This document shows, in pieces, positions 3,298-21,767 of a stretch of DNA of 28,758 nt. Under the pieces are notes generated by a model. The model made no database searches, was not told where the DNA came from, and saw only the letters and a program-made list of their open reading frames with translations. Position numbers and translations under genes: made by a program. The DNA comes from a virus. The stretch is taken from positions 1-28,758 of the IMG/VR virus record IMGVR_UViG_3300020406_000002; one strand, written 5' to 3'. Each line of letters begins with the position of its first letter. The stretch's first letter is position 1.

Positions 3298-4008
3298 ATG
3301 GCTGAAGAAAACCAAGTAGAACAGACTACTGAAACAAAAGAAGAAGAAACACCACAAGTTGAGGAAACATCAAGCGAGGTAATGTTCACAGAGGACGAAA
3401 TGAATGAAATCGTTAGAAAGAGATTAGGCAAAGAAAGAGGTATCTGGTATAAAAAGCTTGGTGTTGAGGACTTTGATACAATTCAAAAAGCTGTAAAGTC
3501 ACAAAAGGATGCAGAAGAAAAGCAACGTATTCAAAAAGGTGAGTTTGAAGAAATACTTAAAACCAGAACGCAAGAGTTCAATAAAGAAAAAGAAAACCTT
3601 GAGAGTCAGCTAAGAGATATCAAGATTAACAAGTCGTTATTATCTTCAGCATCTAGGAATAAAGCCATCAATCCAGACCAAGTAGTTGAGTTATTAAAAA
3701 CAAATATTCAACTTAATGAAAGTGGTAACGTAGAAATTCTTGATAAAAATGGAATAGCACGTTATAGTAAAGCGGGTGAACTTTTGACCACAGACGAATT
3801 AGTGCAAGAGTTTCTTACACAAAACCCTCACTTTGTCAGTGCAACCCCAAGTGGTTCTGGCACAGTGTCAAATGTGGATAGGCAAGAACTCAATAAGCCT
3901 TTAAATCTGAGTGAATTAAATATGAACAATCCAGAGGACAGAAAGAAGTATGCTGAATATCGAAAGCAACGAAATTCTAAACCCTATGTGATTAACTCAA
4001 ACCCTTAA
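3298..4008 (+). CDS. Capsid scaffolding protein
   Basis: A 236-residue, strongly charged protein. The first 35 residues are nearly all Glu/Thr/Gln (TTETKEEETPQVEETSSE), followed by a helical, coiled-coil-like region of about 100 residues and a C-terminal segment (KPLNLSELNMNNPEDRKKY) typical of scaffold ends that contact the coat protein. It lies directly upstream of the major capsid gene, the standard place for a siphovirus scaffold, and has a strong binding site (AAAGGAG). Scaffolds guide procapsid assembly and are then expelled. No protease domain or separate protease gene is seen nearby, so removal may occur without cleavage, or the MuF-linked peptidase might contribute; the latter is speculation. 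Confidence 0.85.
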   Translation: MAEENQVEQTTETKEEETPQVEETSSEVMFTEDEMNEIVRKRLGKERGIWYKKLGVEDFDTIQKAVKSQKDAEEKQRIQKGEFEEILKTRTQEFNKEKENLESQLRDIKINKSLLSSASRNKAINPDQVVELLKTNIQLNESGNVEILDKNGIARYSKAGELLTTDELVQEFLTQNPHFVSATPSGSGTVSNVDRQELNKPLNLSELNMNNPEDRKKYAEYRKQRNSKPYVINSNP

Positions 4009-16664: not shown

Positions 16665-16843
16665 TGACCAAATCAGACATAAATGCAATATTGATGGAAC
16701 TCAGCGTACTTAAAAACGATATGTACCATTTTAGACAGGACATGGAACGAAGGGTTTCACGACTTGAAAGGATAGTTATATCCATAACCGCCTTTTATGT
16801 GATTAGTTCATTCGGGGTTATCTTCAACACTATAGTGCTATAA
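16664..16843 (+). CDS. 59-residue XhlA-like membrane protein
   Basis: Starts in TAATG overlap with the preceding gene and ends at TAA 16841-16843. The first 35 residues form a charged helix (DINAILMELSVLKNDMYHF, MERRVSRLERI), followed by one transmembrane segment (VISITAFYVISSFGVIF). Soluble coiled coil followed by a single C-terminal membrane helix is the plan of haemolysin XhlA-type lysis accessory proteins. It opens the lysis block. The identification is by architecture only. Confidence 0.62.
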   Translation: MTKSDINAILMELSVLKNDMYHFRQDMERRVSRLERIVISITAFYVISSFGVIFNTIVL

Positions 16844-16867: not shown

Positions 16868-17371
16868 ATGTTTGACCCCATTTCGATCAGTGCCAGTTTA
16901 AGTATCGCCAGTTCGGCTTTTTCGGGACTCAAGCGGGCATTTATGGCGGGCAGAGAGCTTGAATCTATGTCACAGGATTTGTCGAGGTGGATGGGTGCTG
17001 TATCCGACATTGATAACGCACACAAGTCAGCTAAAAACCCATCTTTACTAAAAAAGGTAATGAATGGCAAAAGTATTGAACAAGAAGCCATCGAAGCATT
17101 TACCGCTAAAACCCAACTGGAACAGCAAAGGGCGGACTTGCGGACGTTCATCCAATACAGCTATGGACAGTCAAAATGGGACGAATTACTGCGGATGGAA
17201 GCAGACATTCGTAAGAGAAGGCAAAAGGAGGTTTACGATAAACAGCAATTTAGAGAAAAGGTTATAACATATGTCGCTTTGGCAGTGGTTTTGGTTGTTG
17301 GCGTTGGTATTTTGGGTGGTTTTATATACACTCTTATGGGGTTCGACAGAGGATGGTGGTTATCGGACTAG
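16868..17371 (+). CDS. Membrane-anchored protein with C-terminal TM helix; 3' end overlaps next gene
   Basis: A 167-residue protein. The N-terminus (FDPISISASLSIASSAFSGL) is a small-residue amphipathic stretch; the middle is helical and charged (MEADIRKRRQKEVYDKQQF); residues about 134-157 form a membrane helix (VALAVVLVVGVGILGGFIYT) followed by a short end RGWWLSD. The DNA for this helix, from 17271 on, is also the start of the following gene in another frame. The ATG is preceded by a G-run instead of a clear binding site. No enzyme motif is seen. A lysis or inner-membrane role is inferred from neighbours. Confidence 0.72.
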   Translation: MFDPISISASLSIASSAFSGLKRAFMAGRELESMSQDLSRWMGAVSDIDNAHKSAKNPSLLKKVMNGKSIEQEAIEAFTAKTQLEQQRADLRTFIQYSYGQSKWDELLRMEADIRKRRQKEVYDKQQFREKVITYVALAVVLVVGVGILGGFIYTLMGFDRGWWLSD

Positions 17372-17753
17372 GGATAAATGCGTTAGAAAAGAAGGTGGTC
17401 AAGAAACCTTTGAGTGGCTTTGTACTGATGGGAAAGTGATATATTTAGCACAGTCGGACAATATAAAGAACTGTTTTACCTGTTTTCTTAAAAAATTTAG
17501 CGACTGGACATGGGAACAAGAAATCAGAAAAGGGGTGAGAGAAGACCCAAAGTATGTTACTTGTAGAAGATACAAAAGAGTCAGAGCAAAAAATGGTCAA
17601 CAAGTCTGTTTATATAAAGGTGCGAATGATACATATACGCTTGTAGTTGAAGGAGAATGCCCAAATGAGTATCGTTGTATTTATAACCCACACTCACCTA
17701 AACCCAATATAGATAGCGTTGTTGATTCACTAAACGAAAGCTTTAAAAAATGA
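17271..17753 (+). CDS. Cys-rich protein with N-terminal membrane anchor, overlapping the previous gene by 101 bases
   Basis: A 160-residue protein whose start lies in the preceding gene in a different frame. Residues about 3-23 (LWQWFWLLALVFWVVLYTLLW) form a membrane anchor or signal-anchor; the rest is a polar domain with eight Cys, including CFTC and CPNEYRC, suggesting disulphides in the periplasm. AAAGG lies nine bases before the ATG and no later in-frame ATG is available near the start. The arrangement recalls nested spanin genes, where one reading frame encodes the anchor of a second protein, but no lipobox is present. It ends four bases into the EF-hand gene (ATGA). Confidence 0.68.
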   Translation: MSLWQWFWLLALVFWVVLYTLLWGSTEDGGYRTRDKCVRKEGGQETFEWLCTDGKVIYLAQSDNIKNCFTCFLKKFSDWTWEQEIRKGVREDPKYVTCRRYKRVRAKNGQQVCLYKGANDTYTLVVEGECPNEYRCIYNPHSPKPNIDSVVDSLNESFKK

Positions 17754-18079
17754 CACAGAAGAAACTAGAAAAAGATTCAAAATATAACGAAATGGACGCT
17801 AACAAAGATGGTGTTATTTCCGATATTGAAATAGACAGTTGGCAACAAACAGAAGAAGTCAAAAGAATAAACAGAAAGCAAATGCACCAAAGAAACATGG
17901 CTTGGGTTTCTCTTGGGTCTATGTTGGTCTTTACAATAATAATGTTTACCCCCTTAATACCAGACTCACGAATAAAACTACTCACAGACCTATCAAACCT
18001 ATTTTATCTGGCACAAGCAGGGATAGTTGGTGCTTTTATGGGGTTTTCGGTCTTAGATAGAACAGGTGGAAAAAAATGA
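17750..18079 (+). CDS. EF-hand protein with two membrane helices (holin-like)
   Basis: A 109-residue protein. Residues 16-27, DANKDGVISDIE, are a canonical 12-residue EF-hand calcium loop (D1, N3, D5, G6, I8, E12). A helical linker rich in Arg/Gln follows, then two predicted membrane helices: MAWVSLGSMLVFTIIMFTPL, about residues 49-68, and LFYLAQAGIVGAFMGFSVL, about 84-102. Similar EF-hand plus two-helix proteins occur in marine phages (memory). Position between lysis genes suggests a holin or holin regulator, possibly responsive to divalent cations; this is inference. Coupled by ATGA at both ends. Confidence 0.7.
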   Translation: MTQKKLEKDSKYNEMDANKDGVISDIEIDSWQQTEEVKRINRKQMHQRNMAWVSLGSMLVFTIIMFTPLIPDSRIKLLTDLSNLFYLAQAGIVGAFMGFSVLDRTGGKK

Positions 18080-18537
18080 TAACATTATTGGGTAGCCTAT
18101 TAGGATTTGGAACAAGCTTTCTACCAGAAGTCCTAAATTATTTCAAAAGAGGACAAGAGCAAAAACACGAACTGCAAAGAATGAAAATGGAAATAGAACT
18201 CATGGCAAAAAGGTCAGAGTTCAAAATCCAAGAACTAGACAAAGAAGCAGAAATAAAAGAAGCAGAGGGGTTATATAAACATGATAGTGTGGATGCAGGA
18301 GGTTTTATCAACGCATTACGAGGTAGTGTGCGTCCTATTATCACTTATGCTTTTTTTGGCTTATTCGTTGCCATTAAAGTGACCGCTTTGATTAGCCTTA
18401 TGAGTTTACCAGAAATGCAACTAAACATGGCTCTAAGCATGATTTGGGATGACCAGACCGCAGGTTTATTTTCAGCAATTATGGCATTTTGGTTTGGAAA
18501 TAGGGCAGTTAGCAAGTATTATAAAGCAAAAGGGTGA
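18076..18537 (+). CDS. Holin of the 3-TM type
   Basis: A 153-residue protein starting in ATGA overlap with the EF-hand gene. N-terminal hydrophobic segment (LLGSLLGFGTSFLPEVLNYF), a long charged helix (HELQRMKMEIELMAKRSEF, ELDKEAEIKEAEG), then RGSVRPIITYAFFGLFVAIK and a last segment with TAGLFSAIMAFWFGNRAVSK. The VRP-ITY-F and FWFGNR elements fit the 3-TM holin family of gene transfer agents and many marine phages. It would permit release or activation of the endolysin located two genes downstream. Confidence 0.82.
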   Translation: MITLLGSLLGFGTSFLPEVLNYFKRGQEQKHELQRMKMEIELMAKRSEFKIQELDKEAEIKEAEGLYKHDSVDAGGFINALRGSVRPIITYAFFGLFVAIKVTALISLMSLPEMQLNMALSMIWDDQTAGLFSAIMAFWFGNRAVSKYYKAKG

Positions 18538-18631: not shown

Positions 18632-19093
18632 ATGGCTTTCACATTATCACAAAGAAGTTTAGGACGATTAGACGGAGTTAATAATAAATTACATTCGGTA
18701 GTAACAACCGCCATAGGTCTGACAAATGTCGATTTTGGGGTTACTTGTGGACTAAGAACCGAAAAAGAGCAAGAAGATTTAGTGGCTAGAGGTGCATCAA
18801 AAACCATGAAAAGTAAACACCTCACAGGAGATGCAGTAGACGTTGTGGCTTATATTGGTGGCTCACGCATTTCATGGGAATTAAATTTATATGATGATAT
18901 AGCGGATGCGTTCAAAGAAGCATCAATTAAAGAGGGTGTTGGAATACGATGGGGTGCTTCATGGCATATACCAGACTTGCGAGAATGGGAAGGTTCAGCC
19001 GAAGAAGCTATGATGGCATACATAGACCTTAGACGTTCGCAAGGGCGTAGACCCTTCATTGATGCACCACATTTTGAACTTGTAAGTACTTGA
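18632..19093 (+). CDS. Endolysin, M15 family L-alanyl-D-glutamate peptidase
   Basis: A 153-residue enzyme that cuts peptidoglycan peptide stems at the end of infection. The zinc site is visible: SKHLTGDAVD supplies His63 and Asp70, and APHFEL supplies His147 near the C-terminus; VTCGLRTEKEQEDL before it is the usual substrate-side segment. Length and plan match T5-type and other M15C phage endolysins. No signal peptide or SAR helix is seen, so a holin is needed for access. AAAGGG precedes the ATG. The C-terminal codons overlap the start of the duplicated intergenic element. Confidence 0.92.
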   Translation: MAFTLSQRSLGRLDGVNNKLHSVVTTAIGLTNVDFGVTCGLRTEKEQEDLVARGASKTMKSKHLTGDAVDVVAYIGGSRISWELNLYDDIADAFKEASIKEGVGIRWGASWHIPDLREWEGSAEEAMMAYIDLRRSQGRRPFIDAPHFELVST

Positions 19094-21455: not shown

Positions 21456-21767
21456 ATGAAGAAATCAAAACTAATTTTCACTTTATTGTTAGCTGTTGTT
21501 ATTGGTGGTTGTTCATCAATGCCAATAGTTGATAGTAGAGGAAAATCGTCAGCCAATATAAAGGGTGACATGAACCGCTTTCACGATGATTATTATACCT
21601 GTAAAAGCTTAGTACAAGACCAGACAAGTTACGTTTGGGATAAGAGCAAAGCAGTCTATAATGGTCTAAGGTGGCGTGTTTTGTGGCTCAGTCCTAAAGC
21701 AAATACCAGAAAAGATTTTATCAATCGGTGTTTAGAGGGTCGGGGTTATAACGTAATTAATAAATAA
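21456..21767 (+). CDS. Phage lipoprotein (possible superinfection exclusion or moron)
   Basis: A 103-residue protein with a lipoprotein signal peptide: basic MKKSK, hydrophobic IFTLLLAVVIGG, lipobox IGGC with Cys19. Ser at +2 after Cys favours transport to the outer membrane. The mature part holds Cys at two places (YYTCKSLV, INRCLEGRG), which could form a disulphide, and aromatic segments (WDKSKAVYNGLRWRVLWLS). It has a private promoter candidate and its own AATTGGAGTTC start element among replication genes, as expected for a moron. Phage lipoproteins such as Cor and Llp block receptors; whether this one does is inference. Confidence 0.78.
   Translation: MKKSKLIFTLLLAVVIGGCSSMPIVDSRGKSSANIKGDMNRFHDDYYTCKSLVQDQTSYVWDKSKAVYNGLRWRVLWLSPKANTRKDFINRCLEGRGYNVINK

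Follow-up and report, generated by a model that had tools for sequence, protein, structure and literature searches.

Can one stretch of phage DNA supply the membrane helices of two different proteins, and, if it can, is the second reading maintained and how did it come about? The question is raised by a pair of genes in the window analyzed here, that is, the whole 28,758-nucleotide stretch (a 28.8-kb virus record), in which genes 1 to 5 and the features described within them lie on the + strand. Gene 1 (16868..17371) encodes a 167-residue protein predicted to be tail-anchored, with a cytoplasmic helical part, a C-terminal membrane helix, and a short conserved tail, DRGWW; the protein ends in ...YVALAVVLVVGVGILGGFIYTLMGFDRGWWLSD and matches the PHROG 32327 profile over residues 1-154 (E 6.1e-12). 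Gene 2 (17271..17753, from an ATG at 17271 to a stop at 17753) encodes 160 residues that begin MSLWQWFWLLALVFWVVLYTLLWGSTEDGG, with an N-terminal hydrophobic helix followed by a Cys-rich ectodomain. The genes overlap by 101 nt (17271..17371), gene 2 lying in the +1 frame of gene 1, and the DNA for the C-terminal membrane helix of gene 1 (YVALAVVLVVGVGILGGFIYTLM; 17270..17338) includes that for the N-terminal helix of gene 2, a putative signal-anchor (17277..17336). An earlier note on this DNA had claimed that the same ~100 bases encode both helices, and the open reading frames, coordinates, and helix sequences are as it described. At its other end, the gene 2 stop overlaps the gene 3 ATG (17750) by 4 nt. 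The terminase of the window is nearest to that of Pelagibacter phage HTVC026P (57% identity); a SAR11-type host is suggested, rather than proven, for this phage.

Constraint on the doubly read DNA

The overlap is shared by a large group of uncultured marine phages: scans of viral contigs yielded 96 distinct overlap sequences in which both genes can be read, and the +1 frame is open in 96/96, a count that describes constraint rather than independent trials, the sequences being related by descent and found by similarity. When the gene 1 overlap is recoded synonymously at the codon usage of the window, the probability of an open +1 frame is 0.001 on average (range 2e-5 to 5e-3; 0.0013 for the window). 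The strongest control is the homologous gene 1 helix in relatives without the overlap, where the +1 frame is open in 1/57 sequences with the two genes fused, 0/14 with a gene 2 that has its own signal peptide, and 2/45 with no gene 2. NTA accounts for 4.2% of NTN codons in the overlap class versus 38-42% in the homologous helices of the other classes, and wobble positions carry A in 6.7% of cases in the overlap versus 36.5% upstream in gene 1. The earlier note had put the double hydrophobicity down to T/G-rich DNA; this composition stands as a permissive cause but not in a sole role, since the low-A wobble marks the constraint. Both frames are conserved beyond chance across relatives, as in an overlapping gene pair, and a chance overlap was ruled out by the synonymous null models and by the stopped +1 frame in the other classes. 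In a codon-position rate test, four-fold sites reach 0.35-0.51 in the overlap versus about 0.5-0.66 upstream, and changes involving A are reduced, a strong shift away from A; because the four-fold slow-down is only modest, we rank this test as weaker evidence than frame openness.

Once the second frame is open, its hydrophobicity comes largely from the genetic code: on average 62% of the recoded open sequences score above 1.6 in Kyte-Doolittle hydrophobicity. The observed gene 2 helices nevertheless exceed this null (2.37 vs 1.78 in recoded-but-open sequences), an excess that is not significant for the window alone (p 0.27), and the first 22 residues of gene 2 are free of charge in 85/96 relatives. 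For the gene 1 helix, the maximum 17-residue Kyte-Doolittle mean is 2.1-3.5 in the 96 relatives. Hydrophobicity is thus kept in both frames, as the earlier note had proposed to check. The mean pairwise difference within the overlap class is 0.43 for the gene 1 helix and 0.56 for the gene 2 helix versus 0.14 for the gene 2 ectodomain; both helices retain their hydrophobicity while their sequences are free to vary, as is expected of an anchor. Within the overlap clade we found neither an interrupted frame nor an anchorless gene 2, either of which the earlier note would have counted against its reading; distant relatives with gene 2 outside the overlap carry their own signal peptide, and a hydrophobic gene 2 N terminus is kept in every arrangement examined.

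Arrangements of the gene pair among relatives

The earlier note overlooked fused, own-signal, and gene-1-only relatives, and the overlap proves to be one state of a module with several forms. Distant relatives were found with queries from divergent members, and all loci were assigned by script to classes whose counts include near-duplicates: 217 loci have the helix-on-helix overlap; about 20 have separate genes, gene 2 with its own signal peptide (overlapping by 4-46 nt or about 133 nt apart); 86 have a fused single ORF of about 250 aa, with one helix and then Ala-X-Ala in 82 and an Ala-Arg-Gly-type sequence in 4; 10 have a fused form interrupted at nine or ten consecutive A, which a -1 shift would make continuous again; and 63, Roseobacter CRP phages included, have gene 1 alone. 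Relatives of gene 1 occur in Roseobacter CRP phages and in Limnohabitans phage DC31, and Roseobacter CRP-5 was matched by a fused query. PHROG 32327 is also matched by the fused and gene-1-only forms; no function is assigned to this family, and its entry describes neither gene 2 nor the overlap.

In the own-signal contig L256, the N terminus of gene 2 reads MFKILLVLLLSLIALPVNA|EKDRYG, and L256 and L242 have the same mature domain as gene 2 of the overlap class. In four own-signal loci with a gap (L239, L242, L245, and L257), a ~58-aa ORF with a hydrophobic stretch starts right after the gene 1 stop and overlaps the start of gene 2. The fused protein (for example, L331 2501-3253, L327, and L354) has the appearance of a phage proprotein that the host leader peptidase cleaves. 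In the ten broken loci (L329, L338-L343, L347, L348, and L350), a -1 frame change separates gene 1 from the ectodomain at A9-A10 before TTCRLK, where the fused relatives run on without a break; this junction may be a slippage site or a homopolymer error. From the existence of fused forms we infer, by the Rosetta-stone argument, that the products of gene 1 and gene 2 belong together functionally.

In a tree of the N-terminal part of gene 1, from which very long branches were left out and in which the root is not fixed, the overlap class forms one clade (support 97/91), and seven changes are needed over all classes. Own-signal forms fall in two separate parts of this tree, for which reason parsimony favors them as probably the older state, with the overlap derived.

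Initiation, export, and possible function of gene 2

Gene 2 is predicted to initiate at the ATG at 17271. AAAAGG (17256..17261), 9 nt before this ATG, is a weak Shine-Dalgarno-like candidate that recurs in relatives sharing the ATG, and a TAA in the gene 2 frame (17265..17267) closely precedes the ATG. The 30 nt upstream contain such a stop in 28/32 relatives that have a 17271-type ATG (window included) and in 0/64 that do not. Across the 96 relatives, the codon at the 17271 place is ATG in 32 and TTG in 36, and 59/96 have an ATG 36 nt upstream, giving an overlap of 137 nt, where the window has ACG (17235..17237). No ATG stands at either usual place in 21/96: the homologous place holds TTG in 17 of these, and the other 4 have just a TTG, one codon further on. 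Among the 21, a few carry ATGs still further upstream. The pattern is consistent with translation from the upstream ATG in relatives that lack the inner one, but the 21 are not accounted for by the two usual places. In relatives of this kind, for example L090, L096, L100, and L107, the reading frame of gene 2 extends open far upstream; TTG occupies the start place, and ACG replaces the ATG seen elsewhere.

As the earlier note had observed, the second protein is Cys-rich: its eight ectodomain Cys, beginning at residue 37, are conserved in nearly all close relatives, and the count varies by class (fused forms have 4, L157-like forms and the own-signal forms of their type 6, and the window type 8). 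The full-length model is poor (pLDDT 49), with a helix at residues 3-25 and an N-terminal pLDDT of about 82; with a wider alignment, the ectodomain core (17436..17750) is modelled at pLDDT 75.5 as four beta strands and a C-terminal helix that hold 6 of the 8 Cys. The core model gave no fold match at E 0.001, and gene 2 itself had no Pfam match, a best PHROG E of 0.058, and no PDB sequence, with no family match of note in its relatives. No gene 2 was found in the deposited phage genomes searched or, with A1, in bacterial genome contigs. One contig assigned to a bacterial genome, L433 of the Rhodobacteraceae MAG REDSEA-S34_B6, is the only one with an own-signal gene 2 relative (3496-3690) and is probably a viral contig binned with the MAG. 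Gene 2 would represent a disulphide-rich exported domain not described before, carried by phages that abound in marine viral contigs. Visual inspection and motifs served to assess the cleavage and topology of gene 2. Of the overlap-class proteins, only 10/96 carry an [AVSTLIG]-x-A site in the segment that separates the helix from the first ectodomain Cys, and because Ala-X-Ala is near universal in the fused forms, we infer that the ectodomain is released there and stays anchored in the clade of the window, where gene 2 is predicted to span the membrane uncleaved.

The sequence comparisons establish the overlap, its conservation, the codon constraint, the single clade, and the other architectures, and the account of them that we hold to be probable is that gene 2 lost its own signal peptide and now uses the +1 reading of the gene 1 helix as a signal-anchor. 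Together, gene 1 and gene 2 would make up a membrane module of two proteins that is conserved in marine phages and lies most often next to genes for a holin or an endolysin, with gene 1 anchored by its C-terminal helix and gene 2 carrying a disulphide-rich domain to the periplasm. The ancestral layout would have been neighboring genes, gene 2 with a cleavable signal peptide; loss of that signal would have joined the mature gene 2 domain to the +1 frame of gene 1, the overlap arising once. Ribosomes would start inside gene 1 and read the helix DNA in +1, producing a second, unrelated hydrophobic helix that would act as a signal-anchor (N-in, C-out), and selection would then have purged NTA codons, keeping the +1 frame open. 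The genetic code would facilitate this kind of replacement, since helix codons read in +1 tend to specify hydrophobic residues.

Other readings of the overlap have to be weighed against this account. That the genetic code gives rise to the second helix incidentally, the true start of gene 2 lying downstream, agrees with the majority of recoded open sequences that pass the hydrophobicity threshold, but we disfavor it as extremely unlikely: the open frame is improbable yet kept throughout, NTA is avoided, hydrophobicity is in excess, and no relative has an anchorless gene 2. A +1 ribosomal frameshift within the overlap might instead make a gene 1-gene 2 fusion, a cytoplasmic-helix-periplasmic chain as in the fused relatives. 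A shift anywhere would give a working helix, since both frames are hydrophobic; the 86 fused loci, the ten broken ones whose fusion a -1 shift could restore, the open upstream frame in 64/64 relatives without the 17271-type ATG, and the 21 without an ATG at both usual places are all in keeping with it. In 28/32 relatives with that ATG, the window among them, however, the upstream stop would confine any shift to the helix; inspection by eye revealed no conserved +1 slip site, start codons stand at homologous places in most relatives, and upstream openness may be free, given the few T-second codons there. We regard such frameshifting as rather improbable, and slightly more so a combined version, in which the doubly read helix yields the separate proteins plus, via +1 frameshifting, an ancestral-type fusion; a shift anywhere in the helix codons could give this fusion because either frame completes the same membrane segment. 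Somewhat less doubtful, although still unlikely, is that signal peptidase I removes the hydrophobic segment of gene 2 as a signal peptide, releasing the ectodomain in the manner of the own-signal and fused relatives. Released-type sites are near universal in fused relatives and STA follows the hydrophobic segment in L234-L236, but A-x-A-type sites are scarce in the overlap class, the hydrophobic stretch of about 20 residues is longer than a usual h-region, and the residues after the helix (WGSTEDGG, WGWTGVGG) fit the cleavage rule poorly.

The genomic setting bears on function. Upstream of gene 1 lie a tail-fibre-like gene and small genes. Downstream, gene 3 (17750..18079) has a DxNxDGxIS EF-hand-like motif and two hydrophobic segments, and its relatives adjoin gene 1 in CRP-1 and DC31; gene 4 (18076..18537; PHROG 6637) has a weak match to GTA-holin-3TM, below the Pfam cut-off; and gene 5 (18632..19093) encodes an M15-type endolysin. 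A holin or M15 endolysin homologue lies at most 2.5 kb downstream in 33/71 overlap, 26/53 fused, 1/13 own-signal, and 3/46 gene-1-only loci; fused loci sit before a clear GTA-type holin, and some relatives adjoin tail genes, such as the gp5-like hub in L242. The lysis-region position given in the earlier note holds. Because of this linkage in the overlap and fused classes, synteny makes a lysis role the leading idea for these two classes, no more. In about 34 overlap-class loci, genes 2 and 3 do not overlap by 4 nt but stand about 172-243 nt apart, with room for an additional small gene. Small helix plus coiled-coil proteins lie beside gene 1 in several unrelated contigs (window 16667-16843, L272 2981-3208, and L085 2722-2943), and one was found by similarity next to gene 1 in 40/46 gene-1-only loci. 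At window 21456-21767, 2.4 kb past the endolysin, a small protein with a lipoprotein-like N terminus (LAVVIGGC) is a possible o-spanin candidate.

If the module acts in lysis, it might be a two-component spanin of the overlapped layout, with which its overlap, its Cys content (PMC6139136), and the nearby holin and endolysin genes agree. We consider this very unlikely, as gene 2 has no lipobox, its core model is beta-rich rather than coiled-coil, and the window has a separate lipoprotein gene (21456-21767); spanin membership was rejected on the absent lipobox and the beta-rich model. The pair might also act not in lysis but in superinfection exclusion or a different function of the envelope, a minority reading to which we give some weight: membrane anchoring and an exported disulphide domain would suit exclusion, relatives such as L242 lie beside tail genes, and overlapping phage genes with exclusion activity exist (PMC9936078), but the recurrent holin and endolysin linkage in the overlap and fused classes speaks against it.

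Comparison with known systems

The earlier note had likened the pair to nested spanin genes (Rz/Rz1); the likeness of layout stands, but kinship does not, with no lipobox, a beta-rich model, and a tail-anchored gene 1. Overlapped spanins (Kongari et al. 2018, PMC6139136) are similarly adjacent lysis-region envelope genes in which an overlap of ~100 nt codes for the export signal of the second protein, and spanin families, like this module, exist in both overlapped and separated layouts (PMC6139136). In spanins, however, the overlap joins the periplasmic C terminus of the i-spanin to the lipoprotein signal of the o-spanin, whereas here it joins two membrane helices, and spanins differ from this pair in that fused relatives of the pair exist. 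An i-spanin has an N-terminal TMD and a periplasmic coiled coil; the gene 1 helix is C-terminal, and by predicted topology the bulk of gene 1 would lie on the other side of the membrane. The o-spanin lipobox ([LVI][ASTVI][GAS]C) is absent from the N-terminal segment of gene 2 in the window, which has no Cys in or just after its hydrophobic stretch, in agreement with the earlier note. A unimolecular spanin has a lipobox and a C-terminal TMD with no periplasmic Cys (PMC6139136), features not matched by a gene 2 that lacks the lipobox and has 8 Cys.

In the literature on overlapping membrane genes, as far as our incomplete coverage extends, we found no report of a phage pair with two helices read from the same DNA. 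Two parallels, arterivirus ORF5a/GP5 and okavirus ORFX (PMC3139419, PMC2805633), likewise have a membrane segment in a frame overlapping a membrane glycoprotein gene; unlike the present pair, they belong to animal RNA viruses and involve a de novo overprinted gene, whereas here an old exported domain would have had only its signal overprinted. Hydrophobicity profiles survive frame shifts, most of all in membrane proteins shifted by +1 (Bartonek et al. 2020, PMC7084103), which predicts a hydrophobic +1 reading of a membrane helix as in this pair. That work is proteome-wide and theoretical, whereas here a natural gene pair uses both readings: in many lineages one DNA stretch gives the membrane helix of two proteins, with relatives that are separate, fused, and overlapped. 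The module would thereby offer a direct test of the proposal that frame-shifted helix readings supply ready-made hydrophobic segments, in this case one that would have replaced a signal peptide.
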